DNA of 64,000 bases from assembly GCA_017993505.1 (NCBI GenBank), contig JAGOMP010000003.1, positions 62,001 to 126,000 on the forward strand. Reading direction: 5' to 3'. Both the position numbers and the translations under genes were made by a program. This stretch comes from Planctomycetota bacterium. Lineage in GTDB: Bacteria; Planctomycetota; Uabimicrobiia; Uabimicrobiales; JABWCH01. Each line of letters opens with the position of its first letter. The stretch's first letter is position 1. Positions 8,014-47,906 of the stretch are shown here, in pieces. The notes under the pieces are model-generated. The model was not told where the DNA came from, did not search any database, and was given only the letters and a program-made list of their open reading frames with translations.

Positions 8014-9474
8014 ATGAACGGAGGAAAGAAAACAGAAGCAAGAAGAAAATCTGTACTGAATTATCAAAAAAAAATGCCTAAAAGTATATATTTAGCTCCA
8101 AGTATTGATCGACAAATGAATTTTTTTCAGGAAGATTCAATGTCCAATACTTGTAGAAACTTAACTGAAGAAGATTTAAAAAATATTAAGACAAAAAAAA
8201 TATTAAAATATATAGACCTTTTTTCTGGTTTAGGTGGTTTAAGAATAGGTCTAGAACAAGCATTAAAAGAATTTGGTTTACAAGGGAAATGTGTCTTCAG
8301 TTCAGAAATAAAAGAGCATGCTTTATCAGCTTATAATACCTATTTCAAAGAAGATCATTGTGCTATAGATATTACAAAAATAGTTGCTAAAGATATACCG
8401 GACTTTGATATCTTACTTGCTGGATTTCCTTGTCAAGCTTTTAGTAGTGCTGGTAAACGATTAGGTTTTTACGATACACGAGGAACTTTATTTTTCGATA
8501 TAGAAAGAATTTTAAAGGAAAAACTTCCTTCTGCATTTATTCTTGAGAATGTTGAGGGTTTAATCACACATGATAAGGGCAGAACTTTAAAAATTATATT
8601 AGATTCATTAAAAAATTTAGGCTATAACGTCAACTATGCTTTATTAAATGGTCAAAATTTTGGATTGGCTCAATTTCGAAATCGAGTATATATTGTTGGC
8701 ACATTTACTTCTTATGTTCCCTTAGATAACTTTGAATATACTTTTTCATCTTTTCAAGATATTCAAGAATATGGTAAAAAAACTGTCAACTCTTTTTTTA
8801 CTTCACAAGTTTTAAGTCACTTTAAACTAGAGGATTTATTTGGTAAAACTATAAAAGATACACGTGGTGGCAAGAATAATATTCATTCTTGGGATATAGA
8901 ACTCAAAGGAGAGGTTACTGATTGTCAAAAGGCATTATTAAGTAAGTTATTGCGAGAAAGAAGGAAAAAACATTGGGCTGATAAAATTGGAATAACTTGG
9001 ATGGATGGTATGCCATTAACAACAAAACAAATAAGTACATTCTTTTTTTCTGATAATTTACAAGAGATGCTTGATGATTTAACTGAAAAGGGATATCTTG
9101 TTTTAGAACACCCAAAAGAACGTATTGGAAATCAACGAAAATTTGATGTTACAAAAGATAAAGGATATAATATAGTTACTGGTAAACTATCATTTGAATT
9201 CTCTAGCTTCCAAGATCCAAATGATGTTACCCCAACATTAGTGGCAACAGATGTTTCTAAGATCGGAGTAATTGATAATGGTGGTATTCGTGAACTAACC
9301 ATAAAAGAAGGTTTACGTTTATTTGGTTTTCCTGAAGATTATTCACTCAGCTTTTTAAAGAAAAGTGATGCTTTTGATTTACTAGGAAATACTGTCTGTG
9401 TACCAGTAATAAAAGAAATTTCAAAAAACGTGATCTATGCTCTATTTAAAACAAAAGAAAGTACTGATACGTGA
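8014..9474 (+). CDS. DNA (cytosine-5)-methyltransferase of a type II restriction-modification system
   Basis: Transfers methyl from S-adenosylmethionine to C5 of cytosine. 486 residues with ordered motifs: I, YIDLFSGLGGLRIGLEQA (66-83); IV, AGFPCQAFSSAG (136-147) with catalytic Cys140; VI, ILENVEG (176-182); VIII, FGLAQFRNRVYIVG (216-229). A long target-recognition region containing RRKKHWADKIG and WMDGMPLT follows, then motif IX RELTIKEGLRLFGFP and X LLGNTVCVPV. The start is set by AAGGAGGAG upstream. The first 60 residues precede the catalytic fold and are charged. It converges with a truncated restriction-enzyme remnant 52 bp downstream, and both sit between repeat arrays, suggesting an acquired module. 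Specificity GGNNCC is a guess from the nuclease resemblance only. Confidence 0.93.
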   Translation: MNGGKKTEARRKSVLNYQKKMPKSIYLAPSIDRQMNFFQEDSMSNTCRNLTEEDLKNIKTKKILKYIDLFSGLGGLRIGLEQALKEFGLQGKCVFSSEIKEHALSAYNTYFKEDHCAIDITKIVAKDIPDFDILLAGFPCQAFSSAGKRLGFYDTRGTLFFDIERILKEKLPSAFILENVEGLITHDKGRTLKIILDSLKNLGYNVNYALLNGQNFGLAQFRNRVYIVGTFTSYVPLDNFEYTFSSFQDIQEYGKKTVNSFFTSQVLSHFKLEDLFGKTIKDTRGGKNNIHSWDIELKGEVTDCQKALLSKLLRERRKKHWADKIGITWMDGMPLTTKQISTFFFSDNLQEMLDDLTEKGYLVLEHPKERIGNQRKFDVTKDKGYNIVTGKLSFEFSSFQDPNDVTPTLVATDVSKIGVIDNGGIRELTIKEGLRLFGFPEDYSLSFLKKSDAFDLLGNTVCVPVIKEISKNVIYALFKTKESTDT

Positions 9475-11826: not shown

Positions 11827-12450
11827 TCAAAATATATCTTGACTTAGGCGATGGAAGAAGTCGGATATTTTATTGATGATGGTTTTATTTTCTTGTTCTT
11901 GTTGAACAATAGGCGGAGGTGTATTTGTAATTGGTATGTTATTGTCAGTGGTAGTAATAGATCCTAGAAAAAATATACCATAAGCAATGGCAAGTAAAAT
12001 GTATGTATTTGCATTTTTCCAAGTTTCAGCAATTCCTTCTAAAGCATCTGGACCTTCTGTAATTATTAAGTATATGTGATCTGCAATGATAAATATAGGA
12101 TATGTGATGGCAATGGAAATTGCAAATGTTGTTGAAAATGGGAATTTTTGTCTGATAAAGCAGTATGTAATTGTGGGAACAACGAAAAGTATGAGTCGAA
12201 AAATTAAAGGATCTTCATGGTTTGTGAGTTCTTCTAGTATGGTTTCTTCTTGTTCTTCATAGATGGCCAAGTCTATTTGAAAAGTGAATCCTATAAGAAT
12301 GATGTGAGTAATAATGATGATAATGCCTTGTATTATATATGAATCTATGAAAGGACATAGAATTTTTGTTTGCAATGTAGTCAATAGAATAGCAATGGCA
12401 GAAGCAAGTACTATGATAATTGTGAGTTTTATAGTTTCTGGTAGATTCAT
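11827..12450 (-). CDS. Polytopic membrane protein, function unknown
   Basis: 207 residues with about five hydrophobic spans (roughly 7-27, 38-58, 83-101, 107-130 and 148-166), an acidic EEQEE loop between spans two and three, and a Pro/Gln-rich cytoplasmic-looking tail ending in a helix. No family is recognised. It begins 71 bp downstream of the GTPase-STAS-TIR-NB-ARC-WD40 gene in the same direction, so the two may be co-transcribed. If that protein is a defence sensor this could be a membrane partner, but nothing in the sequence proves it. Confidence 0.55.
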   Translation of the reverse strand: MNLPETIKLTIIIVLASAIAILLTTLQTKILCPFIDSYIIQGIIIIITHIILIGFTFQIDLAIYEEQEETILEELTNHEDPLIFRLILFVVPTITYCFIRQKFPFSTTFAISIAITYPIFIIADHIYLIITEGPDALEGIAETWKNANTYILLAIAYGIFFLGSITTTDNNIPITNTPPPIVQQEQENKTIINKISDFFHRLSQDIF

Positions 12451-12521: not shown

Positions 12522-15500
12522 TTAGGAAATGGCAATGATTTTAAGTTTATAGTAGTTAGCAGATTCATCTAATATGTGGAGTATGTTATCTTTAACTGCA
12601 ATAGAGGATGATGCTGCAATGATGTTTGATTCGGTAGTATATGTTTGTAGCAATGTACCATGTTGTAAGTTCCATACTCGAATATGATTATTGGATGTTG
12701 AAATAATGTATTGATTGTCAGGAGTGAATAATAAGTTTGTGATGTTGTTTGTGTGTGCGTGGATAGTTTGAATAAGTTGCAATGTTTGTAAATCCCAGAT
12801 GCGAATATTGCCTTGTTTACTGCCAGTGATGAATATATTGTCATCAGGAGAAATAGTAACAACAACAATAGAATCAGGATGGCAGATAGTCTGTTTTTGC
12901 ATGCTATGTGAGGAGATATCCCAAAGGATGATGTTGTGATCTTGACAGGTACTGATAATATTTTTTTCATCATGCGTGATTGCCAATACTTTGACTTGTG
13001 CTATATGTCCTTGGTATGTTTCTTGGGCTTGTGTTTTTACGTTGTATAGATAGATGTGATTGCATTGTGTGGTATATGATAGATAAGTGCTTTGTGGAGA
13101 AATTACTAAGTTTGTGACTTGTGTAAGAAATGTTTGTAAAGTTTTTATGTCTATATTAGATTGTGTGGCTTGGTTTTGTGAAGAAATTACTAAGTTTGTG
13201 ACTTGGGTAAGAAATGTTTGTAAAATTTTTGTGTCTATGTCTAATTTACATTGTTTGAGTTGATTGTTTTGAATAAAATATAGATTGTTGTCTTTATTGT
13301 CTATTTGTAGAAAGTTGACGTATCCCAATGGTAGTATGTTTTTTTCTTGAATGCTCCCTGTATTTGTATCATAAAGCTGTAATTTGTTGTTATTATCTAT
13401 GATGGCGTATTTTGCATTTTGTATAAATATTGCATTTTGTATAACCGAGAGTGGTTTTGGATTATATGTATTAGCATTGATTCTTTTGAGCCATAGAGAA
13501 CCTTTTTGCCACAGGCAATGGCGGAGAGATTGTTGTAATGATTGTAGGTATTTATCTGATATGTCTGTTTGTTGAAATAGACGTTGGTAGAGTTGTTGTA
13601 TGAAGTAATTGGGCATGTATTGTTGTAAAGAGAGTGCTTTTTTTTCTTGTTCTAGTGCAGTTTGCAATATTTGTAGATAGGGATGATCTTGTTGAAGTTG
13701 GATTGCAAAATCAATGATGGATTTAAGTTCTTGATATCCTCTGAGTTCGTATATTTTTTCTAATTGAATGAATGTTAAGAATGCGTTTACAAGAGAATTC
13801 ACTGCAGTTTGTTTTATGTTATCGAATTCTTCTTGTGTTGTGGTTTGATGTATGTATTTATAGACAAGTTTAGGGAGACGAAATGTATGATGATCGCATT
13901 TTTCCCATATTTCTGTTTGAAAGAGGATAGTAGGGTCTATTTCAGAGAATGCAATGTTTTCTGTTTCTGTATGTATATCTGTAAATAGTTGCAATTTTTT
14001 TATAGTATGTATTTCTCCCAATGGAAATAAGCTAGCAATCATGCTCATTCCCCATGTGAAATCATTACTTACATACATTTTCCATCTATTTAAGATGATG
14101 CTAATTGTATGAAAATGTTGTTGCCATATGGGAGAGTCTTTAGATTTTTCTTTTATTTCTTTTTGTTCTTGTTTTTCTTTTTCTTGAAGTAGGTATTGAT
14201 AGTATTCTGTATATGTTAAATCAGTATTAAATTTTTTTTCTGCTTGGATTAAATGTAAAGAGAGAGCATGTCCATGGATGAATTGGCAAATTTGTTTTGC
14301 TGCTTGTGTTTCTTGTGCTGTTATAGCAGGTGAGTTGCCAATAAGTATTTTCAAAGCAGATTGTGTGGAAAAATTATTGAGTTGATAATTGATAACATCA
14401 GAGTGTTCATAGTATTTGGGGCTAGTGCATAGAATTTTGCAATGGAGTTTTGCTAAAGTAAAATTTGGAAAAAGTTCTTTGTGCAATATATTTGGATCTG
14501 TTAAGTTATCAATGATTAAAAGGATATTGGGATGTTGGTGGATATATTGTTGAAATTTAATAATACTGTCCAACGTTAAGTTGTATTCTGGCGATTCATT
14601 GTATATATTCAGTTCATATACTATTTTTTGAATTTCATAATGCCATTTATTTGTATTGTATAACCATAAAATTCCATCTGGAAATGCATAACTAAATCGA
14701 TGAGCAAATTCAAGTGCAAGTGTTGTTTTCCCAACTCCTTCTAGTTCTTCATATTTTGGATCTTGTGTTAAAATAACGATTTTATTTTTGCGAATATGAT
14801 GATAAAGGGTGAGCAATTCTATATCTCGTTCTTTACAATGATGCTGAACATTACTTGGAATATAGGAATTTTGTGGCAAAAAATGATGATGTGGAATGAG
14901 AGCGTCTTGTGTATTATCAATGGCTTCACAAATTTTATCAAGGACTGTTTCATAATTTTGAATGTCCATGATGGATAAAGTTTGAAGAGGGATAGGAAGA
15001 GACAGATCTGGATCACCAATAGGAATGATGACTTTCCCAAATGCAAAGGAAGTTTCCCATTCTTGCTGGACAATGGAGGATTGCATAGCTTCTTTTGTCC
15101 ATAGAAGTAATACAATTTTTGTATCTAGGATAAACCGTTGGTATTCGGTTGAAGAAGGATCGTAATGCTCAGCACGATTTTGATGATACCATACACTATA
15201 TTGTTTTTTATTAAGGTCTGCCTCCATTTTTTTTGCAATGTCTTCGTTTTCAATAGCATAACTTAAAAATATATTTTGTTTTATATTGACTAGGACGTTG
15301 ATCAATTGCATATTTTGAGTTTGTGTATAGTTTAGAGGGATGAGGCGGGATGTTGTTTTTTGTTGGTCATCATTACTATTTTTTTGTGATTCGAATAGCA
15401 TATTATAATATTCTGTAATTTTTTCACATGGTTTCCAGATTGTCATAGATTTATCTAAGCCCATGACTTCAAATGGTCGTCTGAAATTCGGCTGTAAGTT

Positions 15501-16532
15501 AATTAAATTTAGAGAATTACCTAAAATGCTGGCTTGATTTCCAATTTCAATGAGTAATCCAAAACTTGTACTATGAATATATGTAATGTTTTGCATATCT
15601 AAAATTAAATTTATATTTTCATGTGTATAATAATTTTGAATTACTTTTTTCAAGTCATTAGATGTCGATGCATTGAGGATTCCTGCAAGTTTTAATACAA
15701 TAATAGTGGAGTTTTCATGGTTATAAATTTGTTCTTCAATCTGGAATTTTTTTGTAATGGCCTCATCTTGTTGAAGGAGAAGTTTTGTGCATATACTAGG
15801 AGTTGTACATGTATCTATTTTAGATGATACTGGCGGAGTTATAGCAGAAATTGGATTTATAAACTTTAAGTCTTTAAATAAAGGAATTTTTAGAGACGAA
15901 TTATTAATAAATTCTGTAATATTATTGATTTGTTTAAATTTTTTCTGATATTGTGGTCTTAATAAATTTTTTCGAATGATATCTGAGACAAGACAATAAA
16001 GAGGTTGTATGTATGTTTCTTCTTGGGTAGCATTACTACAATATGTGGGTAAGGCAAGATCAGGGAATAGTGCACATAGGGTGAGCAAGTTGTTAGCATT
16101 GGGTAAATCTTGTTTATTCCATTGAATAATAGCAGAAATATCAGAGAGTGAGGTGTTTTTTTCTTGCAGTATGTTTTGTACATTTTCTATGCATTCTATA
16201 TTTTCTTGTATTTTTGTACTGTCTAAAAGAAAGATAATACCATCTACGTCTTGTAGTAGATGTTTTAGAATGCGATTAAATTGTAAATTTCCAGGAACAG
16301 AAAAAATATTTAATCTAGTCTGTAGACTAGCAATTTTACCTAGGTCAACTGTAAGAAAATCCATGGAGACAAGAGTGGCAGGAGTAGCTGAAATATTACA
16401 TAATTGTGCATTTCCACTACATTGCCATTTTTTATGTAATTGTTTTAAAATAGTTGTTTTACCAGATTCTTGTGGACCACAATATAAGATTTTGTAGGTC
16501 ATTTCTTTTTGTAAAAAATGAAATTGAACCAT
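12522..16532 (-). CDS. GTPase-STAS-TIR-NB-ARC-WD40 fusion protein
   Basis: 1336 residues from ATG 16532, chosen because GGAG lies 6 bases upstream; a TTG at 16565 would add 11 residues. Domains in order: a Ras/Arf-like GTPase, residues about 12-195 (P-loop GPQESGKT 19-26, FSVPG in place of DxxG at 78-81, NKQD 139-142); a STAS domain, 271-370 (LDMQNITYIHSTSFG with a candidate phospho-Ser/Thr); a TIR domain, 419-540 (IFLSYAIENEDIA start, QQEWETSF carrying a conserved Glu491); an NB-ARC/STAND NTPase, about 570-760 (P-loop EGVGKTT 598-604, Walker B LLIIDN); a helical region; and a C-terminal WD40 propeller (at least three repeats with ILWDIS, IRIWDL and IRVWNL). TIR plus STAND plus repeat sensor is the layout of bacterial immune NLR-like proteins, while the GTPase and STAS pieces suggest a switch. 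Defence is inference. Confidence 0.85.
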   Translation of the reverse strand: MVQFHFLQKEMTYKILYCGPQESGKTTILKQLHKKWQCSGNAQLCNISATPATLVSMDFLTVDLGKIASLQTRLNIFSVPGNLQFNRILKHLLQDVDGIIFLLDSTKIQENIECIENVQNILQEKNTSLSDISAIIQWNKQDLPNANNLLTLCALFPDLALPTYCSNATQEETYIQPLYCLVSDIIRKNLLRPQYQKKFKQINNITEFINNSSLKIPLFKDLKFINPISAITPPVSSKIDTCTTPSICTKLLLQQDEAITKKFQIEEQIYNHENSTIIVLKLAGILNASTSNDLKKVIQNYYTHENINLILDMQNITYIHSTSFGLLIEIGNQASILGNSLNLINLQPNFRRPFEVMGLDKSMTIWKPCEKITEYYNMLFESQKNSNDDQQKTTSRLIPLNYTQTQNMQLINVLVNIKQNIFLSYAIENEDIAKKMEADLNKKQYSVWYHQNRAEHYDPSSTEYQRFILDTKIVLLLWTKEAMQSSIVQQEWETSFAFGKVIIPIGDPDLSLPIPLQTLSIMDIQNYETVLDKICEAIDNTQDALIPHHHFLPQNSYIPSNVQHHCKERDIELLTLYHHIRKNKIVILTQDPKYEELEGVGKTTLALEFAHRFSYAFPDGILWLYNTNKWHYEIQKIVYELNIYNESPEYNLTLDSIIKFQQYIHQHPNILLIIDNLTDPNILHKELFPNFTLAKLHCKILCTSPKYYEHSDVINYQLNNFSTQSALKILIGNSPAITAQETQAAKQICQFIHGHALSLHLIQAEKKFNTDLTYTEYYQYLLQEKEKQEQKEIKEKSKDSPIWQQHFHTISIILNRWKMYVSNDFTWGMSMIASLFPLGEIHTIKKLQLFTDIHTETENIAFSEIDPTILFQTEIWEKCDHHTFRLPKLVYKYIHQTTTQEEFDNIKQTAVNSLVNAFLTFIQLEKIYELRGYQELKSIIDFAIQLQQDHPYLQILQTALEQEKKALSLQQYMPNYFIQQLYQRLFQQTDISDKYLQSLQQSLRHCLWQKGSLWLKRINANTYNPKPLSVIQNAIFIQNAKYAIIDNNNKLQLYDTNTGSIQEKNILPLGYVNFLQIDNKDNNLYFIQNNQLKQCKLDIDTKILQTFLTQVTNLVISSQNQATQSNIDIKTLQTFLTQVTNLVISPQSTYLSYTTQCNHIYLYNVKTQAQETYQGHIAQVKVLAITHDEKNIISTCQDHNIILWDISSHSMQKQTICHPDSIVVVTISPDDNIFITGSKQGNIRIWDLQTLQLIQTIHAHTNNITNLLFTPDNQYIISTSNNHIRVWNLQHGTLLQTYTTESNIIAASSSIAVKDNILHILDESANYYKLKIIAIS
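13094..13261 (-). repeat. In-frame 84-bp tandem duplication inside the WD40 gene
   Basis: Two copies (from 13094 and 13178, period 84 bp) encode consecutive 28-residue segments sharing LQTFLTQVTNLVIS. The reading frame is kept. The second-copy sequence is close to the first at DNA level, so the event is recent. Confidence 0.85.
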
Positions 16533-16545
16533 GTTACTCTCCATT

Positions 16546-16622
16546 ATTTGGATTTTCTTTTGCAAAATTTAACTTTGCCAATTTTGATTTGGATTTTCTT
16601 TTGCAAAATTTAACTTTGCCAA
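16546..16622 (-). repeat. 41-bp tandem duplication joining the dNMP kinase stop to the next gene
   Basis: ATTTGGATTTTCTTTTGCAA... starts at 16546 and 16587 with identical copies over about 36 bp. One copy contains the stop codon of the kinase gene (16610-16612); the other leads into the ribosome site and start of the GTPase-TIR gene. Confidence 0.9.
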
Positions 16623-17161
16623 CGTTTTTTTGGATAAAAATAATTGAGTACTTTTTTGCCTTCTGTCACAAGGTCTGAGAAAGTGCCATTGTTAGTGATT
16701 TTCATGTCTGGTTGTATTTGAGAAATTTCTTTTTCTGTTATATGTTCTCTTAGATAGTCTTCTTTTCTGTAAAATACTTTGCTTTCAATAAGAATGATAA
16801 TACCATTATGTTTTTTTATCATTTGTGCTTCTCGTTCGAGTCGCACATCGCCTATGATGATGAATCCATTTGTCTTTTGTATTTTTCGTTCTACGTAGTT
16901 GACTAAGCAGTTTTGATCAATGCTACGCAATGCATCTCCAATCTTACAGAGCAAGTCTCGGTCTTTTTTGCTCAATTTTCCATGTATAGTGCCTACATGG
17001 ATGCCAAAACATTCTCTTGCAACTTGTTTGATGTAATCAGCGAAATTATATACTGTTGTGTCGTAGCCATTTATGCTTAATAAGTAGCTCAATACGTGTA
17101 CAAAACTTGTTTTTCCTTTGCCTTTTTCACCTGTAATGCCGATGATTTTTTTTGCATTCAA
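16610..17161 (-). CDS. Deoxynucleoside monophosphate kinase-like P-loop protein
   Basis: 183 residues. IIGITGEKGKGKTSF at residues 6-20 is a P-loop (GxxGxGKT), and the fold continues as a nucleotide-kinase type protein: FADYIKQVARECFG, ALRSIDQNCLVNYVERKI and FIIIGDVRLEREAQMIK (DVR motif). This combination is typical of phage T4-gp1-like dNMP kinases, which phosphorylate deoxynucleoside monophosphates. A C-terminal EHITEKEISQIQPDMKITNNG stretch also matches that family. The ribosome site TAGGAG before the ATG lies inside a repeat derived from the upstream gene's end. A phage origin is possible but no phage genes surround it. Confidence 0.7.
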   Translation of the reverse strand: MNAKKIIGITGEKGKGKTSFVHVLSYLLSINGYDTTVYNFADYIKQVARECFGIHVGTIHGKLSKKDRDLLCKIGDALRSIDQNCLVNYVERKIQKTNGFIIIGDVRLEREAQMIKKHNGIIILIESKVFYRKEDYLREHITEKEISQIQPDMKITNNGTFSDLVTEGKKVLNYFYPKKRWQS

Positions 17162-45722: not shown

Positions 45723-47906
45723 TCATTGAAATTTTCTGATTTTTAAGATAAATTTTTTTGTCATTTTGAAAAGTTTTGTACCGTTGCTGAAAAAACTTAA
45801 ACAAGAAGCAATGCCAAATAGTGCTGCTAGTCCAAATAAAATGTAATGAAGAATACTGACTTCATAATAGTATTGGGTGAAGCATGCAATATTGAATACA
45901 ATGAGAGTTAGTAGAAATAAAATTGCACTTTTCATATAAGATGTGATTTTATAGGGTGTGTTAAAGTGTTCTATATGTCGTTTACAATAAAATAAATCTA
46001 TAGAGGCTGGAATTTTTTTTACAATTTTACAGCCTTTTGTAATAGGTGTAATCCAAAATTCTACAGTTTTGGTTTCTTTTGAAATGTTGATTAATGTCTG
46101 ATCAGGGTATACATCACATCCAGGGAATTGTGGTAAAATTAAGATATATTTATTAGTGTCCTCTATTGGTAGAAGTTCTCCCTTAATCGTCACGCTCATA
46201 GGATATGTTTGAGCATATTTCATTTTTGAGAAATATTGCACTTCCACTGTTTTTGCCACAGATAGAATTATGTACTTCTGTGAATCAATGCTTGATTTTT
46301 TTGAAGATGTTTTTGTTCTTTTTCTAGGCAATTTTTCTTCTATAGTTTCAATAATTTCATTGCAATCTATAGTTGTAGTGGGCATAGGAAGTTCTAAGTT
46401 ATCTATATTTTGTACAGTAGCAGAAACTGGTTCTATAGAGTCTGGTGTATATTTTCTTCGGCTTGGTTGCATGGCCATGAGTTCTTGTGTAGTAAAACCA
46501 TCAAAATCACTCATGGTTGTTTTAGTTTTTTGCTTTGTTTGTTCAGCGTCTTCTTCGAGTTGTATGTATTGTTCTTGATCTTCCAATACGTCTTGTTCTG
46601 GTGATTCTAGGGGAATATCTGAAAAATCGACTTCTTGTATATGAATTTTATGAGAAAACGTCATATTGTGTTCTGGAACGTTGGTATGTATTTTATTGTA
46701 GTTGGGTTCTTGTTCTTCCACGAGTCGGTCTAAAAATTCTAGGGGACTTGGTTCATATTCTGTGTCTAGTTTTTCTGTAGTGTCTTCCATCTCTAGCTCT
46801 TGTTCTGTGGAAATTTTTTGTTGTTTTTTCTCTAAGTCTTCTTTTATCATGAGCAATGTTTTTTTCAGAAATGGTACTGTTCGTTTAATATGGGGAGGTT
46901 TAGCTATGAATTTTGGTTTTACTTGTTCTTCTTCCTCTTCTTCCACTTCTTCCTCTTCTTTAGAGAATTCTTCTTGAAATGTCATGTTCTCAAATGTTAT
47001 ATCGATAGTTCTTGGAAGAATATCTTGTTTTTCTTGTACTTCTAGGTATTCCTTTTCTTGTATATTATCTTCAGTGGTTTCTATGTTTTTTTCTTGTTTA
47101 TCAGTGGTGATATCATCTAGTTGATAGTCTTCATCACTGTGACTGTCTTTATCTTTATCATAGTCTTCATCATTGGCATTGTCTCTATCATGGTCTTCAT
47201 CATTGGCATGGTCTTCATCACTGTCGCTGTTCTCATCTCTATCATGGTCTTCATCATTGGCATTGTCTCTATCATGGTCTTCATCATTGGCATGGTCTTC
47301 ATCACTGTCGCTGTTCTCATCTATATCATAGTCTTCATTAGTGGCATCATTTTTATCCATGTCATGGTCTTCATCATTGGCATTGTCTTCTTTATGATTT
47401 TTATGTTCATCAATATCATTATCTTTTTCTGTGAGGCTATCTATTTGTTTTTCTTGAGTAGGTTTTTCAGATTCGTCTTTTTGATTTTCTTCTTCTGTGC
47501 ATGATGAAATGATTTTGAAATCGCTTGCTGAGATTGGTTTCCCATTGTTTTGTTTAAAAGAAATTAAGGCTTTATCAAGATTTTCCATAATAGGAAGACA
47601 AACTTCTAGTCCTAACATGTCAAATAAAACTTTAAATTTATTGGCAACATTGATAAGTCGAATACCACCTTCTACCACATGAACACGTTGGGCTATATTA
47701 ATGAGCAATCCTAGGCCTGTACTATTGAGATATTTTGTTTCAGATAAATCTAAGATAATTTTACAGATTCCGTCACGATAAAAACCAAGAACTTTTGCTT
47801 CAAAAATTTGAAGACTTTTTTGATCAATAGGACCACAGGGTTTTAGTAATACAACATCTCCAACTTCTGCATGTTGGTAAATGATAGATTGAATGGTAAG
47901 TTCCAT
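45723..47906 (-). CDS. STAS-domain protein with acidic repeat region and C-terminal membrane spans
   Basis: 727 residues. Residues 1-110 are an anti-sigma-factor-antagonist-type STAS domain (KIILDLSETKYLNSTGLGLLINIA with a candidate phospho-Ser/Thr pair). Residues about 140-270 are an Asp/Glu/Asn/His repeat region including two 28-residue copies rich in DEDHDRD words, encoded by an 84-bp tandem repeat at 47181 and 47265. A long acidic linker is followed by a beta domain (about 545-640, SVTIKGELLPI, YPDQTLINIS), and two spans near the C-terminus (about 655-705). STAS proteins of this kind switch partners by phosphorylation. Here it sits in front of TPR and RtcB genes. Confidence 0.75.
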   Translation of the reverse strand: MELTIQSIIYQHAEVGDVVLLKPCGPIDQKSLQIFEAKVLGFYRDGICKIILDLSETKYLNSTGLGLLINIAQRVHVVEGGIRLINVANKFKVLFDMLGLEVCLPIMENLDKALISFKQNNGKPISASDFKIISSCTEEENQKDESEKPTQEKQIDSLTEKDNDIDEHKNHKEDNANDEDHDMDKNDATNEDYDIDENSDSDEDHANDEDHDRDNANDEDHDRDENSDSDEDHANDEDHDRDNANDEDYDKDKDSHSDEDYQLDDITTDKQEKNIETTEDNIQEKEYLEVQEKQDILPRTIDITFENMTFQEEFSKEEEEVEEEEEEQVKPKFIAKPPHIKRTVPFLKKTLLMIKEDLEKKQQKISTEQELEMEDTTEKLDTEYEPSPLEFLDRLVEEQEPNYNKIHTNVPEHNMTFSHKIHIQEVDFSDIPLESPEQDVLEDQEQYIQLEEDAEQTKQKTKTTMSDFDGFTTQELMAMQPSRRKYTPDSIEPVSATVQNIDNLELPMPTTTIDCNEIIETIEEKLPRKRTKTSSKKSSIDSQKYIILSVAKTVEVQYFSKMKYAQTYPMSVTIKGELLPIEDTNKYILILPQFPGCDVYPDQTLINISKETKTVEFWITPITKGCKIVKKIPASIDLFYCKRHIEHFNTPYKITSYMKSAILFLLTLIVFNIACFTQYYYEVSILHYILFGLAALFGIASCLSFFSNGTKLFKMTKKFILKIRKFQ
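47181..47348 (-). repeat. 84-bp in-frame tandem repeat coding for acidic residues
   Basis: GTCTCTATCATGGTCTTC... starts at 47181 and 47265. A few variant codons differ between copies. Shorter 18-30 bp units continue on both sides. The opposite-strand open frames over it are artefacts. Confidence 0.85.

Follow-up and report, generated by a model that had tools for sequence, protein, structure and literature searches.

Does an NLR-like switch in a bacterium have to be a weapon against phage, or could it serve the cell's own signalling? A single open reading frame in a 64,000-nucleotide stretch of Planctomycetota contig JAGOMP010000003.1 (GCA_017993505.1, positions 62,001 to 126,000; hereafter the window) raises this question, as it encodes an uninterrupted chain of 1336 residues that joins, from N to C terminus, a GTPase, a STAS, a TIR, an NB-ARC and a WD40 module (window positions 12522-16532, minus strand, ATG start). 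With moderate confidence we read the product as an Apaf-1/NLR-like STAND signalling protein, encoded by a single-copy chromosomal gene found class-wide and carrying a pseudo-MglA/STAS docking head. The TIR-STAND combination is already known; what is new is the MglA-STAS head and its decay. To our knowledge, bacterial TIR-STANDs such as Rst_TIR-NLR contain neither an MglA nor a STAS domain, and the open-access literature apparently holds no paper describing this architecture. A word search of two surveys of bacterial conflict systems finds no mention of MglA (PMC7159879, PMC8195603), and a survey of the Ras superfamily, which set aside sequences of more than 240 residues, mentions neither STAS nor TIR (PMC4316618).

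The initial annotation of the window had placed the gene correctly while omitting its strand; the plus-strand reading of the same interval is ruled out by stops throughout. Its description of five modules in one chain is borne out by Pfam, by predicted structures and by the conserved order in four orthologues. Pfam over the whole window protein returns an Arf-type GTPase (1.6e-12), STAS (3.9e-9), TIR_2 (2e-11) and WD40 (3e-20), and the quoted motifs GPQESGKT, NKQD, QQEWETSF and EGVGKTT are all present. An alternative in-frame TTG at 16565 would lengthen the chain to 1347 residues; the ATG is preferred because all four orthologues begin with MVQ[FY] at its position. Directly upstream of the ATG, and overlapping the TTG, lies a 41-bp tandem repeat (16546-16635, 2.2 copies, 91%), which is possibly regulatory.

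A search of 40 relatives yielded full-length matches in four genomes, all of the same class: a Brocadiia-labelled metagenome-assembled genome (MAG; locus L023), MAG RA.bin53 (L024), the complete chromosome of Ca. Uabimicrobium amorphum SRT547 (L025; NZ_AP019860) and MAG OFTM357 (L026). The module order is the same and the length similar (1264-1336 residues across the five members), at 31, 29, 23 and 23% identity to the window protein. Preserved in four further genomes, whose proteins are 23-31% identical to that of the window, the five-domain order is neither accidental nor the result of chimeric assembly. Two features might raise the suspicion of a chimera, a mis-assembly or a decaying gene: the window protein's MglA domain sits on a long branch, and its propeller contains a short duplication. 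Order and length nevertheless recur in four genomes that were assembled independently, including one complete chromosome, and the 1336-codon frame is intact, so that we give this explanation practically no credence.

The gene is single-copy in five of six class genomes, the window genome included, in a sample made up mostly of incomplete MAGs; the sixth genome is 59% complete. Among 392 genomes of the phylum, neither the STAS-TIR nor the MglA-STAS junction turned up outside the five. Two conserved motifs were also sought across 84,980 species, in a scan that requires both to be kept so that distant cases could escape; it returned 32 relatives, and those of full length are only the same four. 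Scanning contigs with a single sequence gave no match, and the alignment-based scan recovered the relatives. Within the genomes scanned, the five-module architecture is found only in one planctomycete class. A single fusion origin of the five proteins is likely, though the MglA-domain tree falls short of proof: it groups them with one change, at only 84% support and with long branches.

The GTPase at the N terminus (residues 1-190; 15963-16532, minus strand) had been called Ras/Arf-like, an identity that we reject in view of a far stronger profile match to MglA (mutual gliding motility protein A): a profile built from the five GTPase domains reaches MglA structures in the PDB at E 4e-54 and Arf at about 1e-13 (8e-14). 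MglA proteins are its closest solved structures and share a V-P-G style G3 motif with it. The catalytic residues of MglA, Arg53 and Gln82, are intrinsic to the protein (PMC6785124), and among 68 comparison rows (stand-alone MglA-like proteins, other fusions and a small number of shorter reads from the same loci) R53 occurs in 59 and Q82 in 59, mostly within DRT and PGQ. In contrast to MglA, all five long proteins have lost the R53 and T54 positions and have a broken PGQ motif (PGN in the window protein); G003 alone has Gln at the Q82 position, with Ser replacing the Gly before it. The P-loop GKT of three members, the window protein among them, is replaced by GTT in Ca. U. amorphum and by GKK in L026, and NKxD is kept in all five (NKQD in the window protein). 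Also unlike MglA, the domain sits within a 1336-residue chain and is not paired with MglB; no MglB/Roadblock gene was recognised adjoining any of the five genes, and the five proteins are long chains without the small single-domain MglA form.

These residues bear directly on the proposal, made in the initial annotation, that the output of the TIR-STAND part is gated by whether the N-terminal GTPase is bound to GTP. With GKT in three members and NKxD in all five, guanine nucleotide may be bound by the window member, but classical GTP gating is unlikely because R53/T54 and PGQ (5/5) and the P-loop (2/5) are lost, and with no MglB/Roadblock gene beside any of the five genes we regard the gating proposal as very improbable. 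The N-terminal MglA is better read as a pseudo-GTPase, in which fold and guanine-specificity motif persist but the residues needed for hydrolysis are gone, and which may have been retained for binding.

Other proteins of the class contain fused MglA domains too. Ca. U. amorphum encodes two MglA-pentapeptide-ion-channel fusions (L095:246-3095 and L109:2104-4431), and two further MglA-pentapeptide proteins have hydrophobic C-termini (L096:1513-4401 and L097:1510-4368). Catalytic MglA positions are damaged in three of these four fusions, which suggests that MglA has repeatedly been recruited as a non-catalytic module. Another planctomycete (G023) encodes a fusion of an MglA-like GTPase with a Ser/Thr protein kinase domain (L102:1017-3143).

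The STAS domain that follows (residues about 263-375; 15408-15746, minus strand) exceeds the TIGR00377 cut-off in the window protein and has SpoIIAA and RsbV as its nearest solved proteins, both by sequence (2e-14) and by fold (Foldseek, 1.7e-8). It resembles the SpoIIAA, RsbV and stressosome STAS domains in fold, in sequence and in its phospho-acceptor, since all five members have Ser at the SpoIIAA Ser57 position and either Ser or Thr at the Ser58 phospho-site (Thr in the window protein). It departs from them in its place between a GTPase and a TIR domain and in the loss of Asp56 from all five, where four members, including the window protein, have His and one has Gln. The early view that a GTPase and a STAS domain at the front are unusual stands; its idea of gating by phosphorylation finds the acceptor Ser/Thr kept and Asp56 gone, and phosphorylation of this STAS domain is possible judging by its residues. 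Of the neighbouring genes examined, none was recognised as encoding an anti-sigma kinase. Within the genome, the STAS domain most closely related to the present one forms the N terminus of a 727-residue protein (window 45723-47906, minus strand), whose class homologues L103 and L104 have a C-terminal membrane segment and adjoin a selA-like gene.

Next in the chain is the TIR domain (residues about 418-535; 14928-15281, minus strand), which scores 48.5, 52.6, 39.5 and 44.8 bits against Pfam TIR_2 in four members (cut-off 28) and 15 bits, below that cut-off, in L026 (G004). The TIR family profile finds the SPARTA TIR first (1e-5), then Cat1 and SARM1, in agreement with Foldseek. The Glu of QQEWETSF pointed out by the initial annotation corresponds to the catalytic Glu that TIR NADases have in helix C; it aligns with SPARTA E77, whose Ala substitution is a catalytic mutant (PMC10474274), and is kept in four of the five members, including the window protein. 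The SPARTA TIR-APAZ and SARM1 NADases, nearest of the solved TIRs, differ from the present family, in which the BB-loop region is poorly conserved, the Glu is absent from one orthologue and NADase activity is a prediction.

An NB-ARC/STAND ATPase with a winged-helix region and linker occupies residues 560-1000 (13533-14855, minus strand). Pfam NB-ARC is weak in the window protein (0.0025) and above cut-off in two orthologues (2.6e-9 and 1.3e-7). A structure model of this region is matched by Apaf-1 (4.6e-7), CED-4 (5.6e-4) and the NRC4 resistosome (6.4e-4) in Foldseek, and GVGKTT and LLIIDN are kept in the window protein, the Walker A GKT and the Walker B Asp being invariant in all five. Ahead of the propeller, a 63-residue linker (residues 960-1022, FIQQ..Y ... 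WLKR.N; 13467-13655, minus strand) is strongly conserved, at 39% mean pairwise identity, and the WD40 beta-propeller itself makes up residues 1023-1336 (12525-13466, minus strand). The propeller part of the gene contains one in-frame 64-nt direct duplication (window 13091-13238, 94% identical, spacing 84); the four orthologues lack the resulting insert.

In all five members the TIR domain precedes the NB-ARC region and the WD40 part follows it, so that the TIR, STAND and WD40 layout, correctly recognised at the outset as NLR-like, recurs in the relatives. NB-ARC followed by WD40 is also the order of Apaf-1, the best match of the NB-ARC model among Apaf-1, CED-4 and the plant resistosomes. Apaf-1 differs in having CARD on the effector side, where the present protein has MglA-STAS-TIR, and in having two propellers, compared with seemingly one here (judged by region length, not by blade count). 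By sequence the nearest STAND proteins are AfsR, which is closest to the NB-ARC region, and the FxSxx-type regulators of actinobacteria; unlike the present protein, these carry DNA-binding or TPR parts and not MglA, STAS, TIR or WD40.

If the protein is indeed an NLR-like switch, the C-terminal propeller would keep the NB-ARC ATPase closed until an intracellular ligand freed it. The freed NB-ARC part would then oligomerise and thereby cluster the TIR domains directly N-terminal to it, which could either cleave NAD+ (in the members with the Glu, including the window protein) or form a TIR-TIR scaffold. The pseudo-MglA and the phosphorylatable STAS domain would probably act not as a GTP timer but as a docking and regulatory head for a Roadblock-, kinase- or polarity-type partner.

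Several observations count against this interpretation. The status as a core gene depends on six class genomes, mostly incomplete. One orthologue (L026) has Ala in place of the TIR Glu and a Pfam TIR match with an E-value of only 0.035 by itself. All five proteins lack the first Gly of the Walker A consensus G/AxxxxGK[ST], present in Apaf-1, and have only weak MHD- and GLPL-like motifs, which makes ATP switching uncertain. Finally, the two structure models are of middling confidence, with mean pLDDT (predicted local distance difference test) of 65 and, for residues 560-1000, 62. As far as the folds go, the predicted structures nevertheless match SpoIIAA/RsbV, TIR-APAZ/SARM1 and Apaf-1/CED-4, in support of the STAS and TIR assignments.

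Would such a switch be directed against phage? The TIR-NLR proteins of P4-like satellites (Rst_TIR-NLR), which are proven antiphage systems (PMC9122126), share the layout, as do other bacterial TIR-STANDs: a TIR before the STAND ATPase and a C-terminal sensor, all in one chain. A dedicated antiphage TIR-NLR would sense a phage protein through its WD40 part and kill or arrest the cell by depleting NAD+, in the manner of Rst_TIR-NLR or Avs-type STANDs, with MglA and STAS as add-ons of the lineage. The TIR Glu in four of five members fits this explanation, as does the pattern of divergence, in which TIR (25% mean pairwise identity) and WD40 (27%) are the most variable domains, ahead of the nucleotide-binding part (29%), STAS (34%) and MglA (41%), the last two being the best conserved. 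It can also draw on a C5 cytosine DNA methyltransferase about 3 kb from the gene (window 8014-9474, plus strand). No restriction enzyme was recognised in the two genes upstream of the methyltransferase (Rpe and FGE-sulfatase family).

The genomic setting speaks for a different role. Rst_TIR-NLR is satellite-borne and mobile, whereas the present gene has one chromosomal copy throughout the class and, in the genomes sampled, is neither patchy nor in a defence island. In the window its neighbours encode GatD, a dNMP kinase-like protein, PheRS subunits, ribulose-phosphate epimerase (Rpe) and a dihydrolipoamide dehydrogenase-like protein (Lpd), and in Ca. U. amorphum and L026, the two f2-family genomes, it sits after miaA, which encodes a tRNA isopentenyl transferase, and an NHL-repeat segment. 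These last two form one 621-residue frame in L026 (L026:10709-12571) and two adjoining open reading frames in Ca. U. amorphum (L025:6568-8448). No homologue of the five-module protein was found in a phage collection or in viral contigs. PADLOC reports HEAT-ARM_XIII, a match that covers the WD40 part only and is not informative, and none of its curated defence models matches the TIR-STAND part. The defence function that the initial annotation offered as an inference is not supported by the gene's context. Its broader idea of an immune or signalling switch survives, with the TIR and STAS folds supported and the catalytic Glu kept in four of five members, but is redirected. An endogenous signalling role is favoured because of the class-wide single copy, the housekeeping setting and the absence of viral copies; we consider a core signalling protein of NLR type more probable than a mobile gene dedicated to phage defence, and rate dedicated defence as rather unlikely.

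The same annotation had drawn attention to a membrane gene downstream. It is indeed co-oriented, 71 bp from the five-module gene (11827-12450, minus strand), and encodes 207 residues with no Pfam family and with hydrophobic segments that would fit about five spans. At all four orthologous loci it is missing and a convergent gene lies on the downstream side instead, and homologues of the membrane protein in 12 relatives amount to one weak match at best. We therefore reject a conserved partnership, and the membrane protein is probably outside the system.

Could the chain work without any enzymatic output? If it served as a scaffold in the signalling of polarity, surface motility or engulfment, its head would dock Roadblock or polarity parts and its TIR and NB-ARC domains would only assemble, NADase activity being absent or incidental. 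Consistent with this, the head is derived from MglA and is the best conserved domain, one member has lost the TIR Glu, MglA-Roadblock gene pairs are present in the same genomes, and one orthologue belongs to Ca. U. amorphum, whose engulfment of other cells has been described (PMC6906331, PMC11481906). However, nothing links the protein itself to motility or engulfment, the lifestyle of the window organism and of the MAGs is not known, and the Glu persists in four of five members despite the low mean identity of the TIR domain; we think a purely structural role rather unlikely. A further version of the endogenous signalling role, which we advance only speculatively, is that of a class-specific NLR-like hub, in which an ancient polarity GTPase of the MglA type has been turned into a non-hydrolysing docking head that couples the state of polarity or engulfment to TIR/NAD+ signalling. 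The link to engulfment is suggested solely by the presence of the gene in Ca. U. amorphum.

Bacterial TIR-STANDs are mostly seen as mobile weapons against viruses, and here one is a class-wide chromosomal gene. This makes it testable whether NLR-like switches operate in endogenous bacterial signalling, and also opens a way to study how prey-engulfing bacteria signal.

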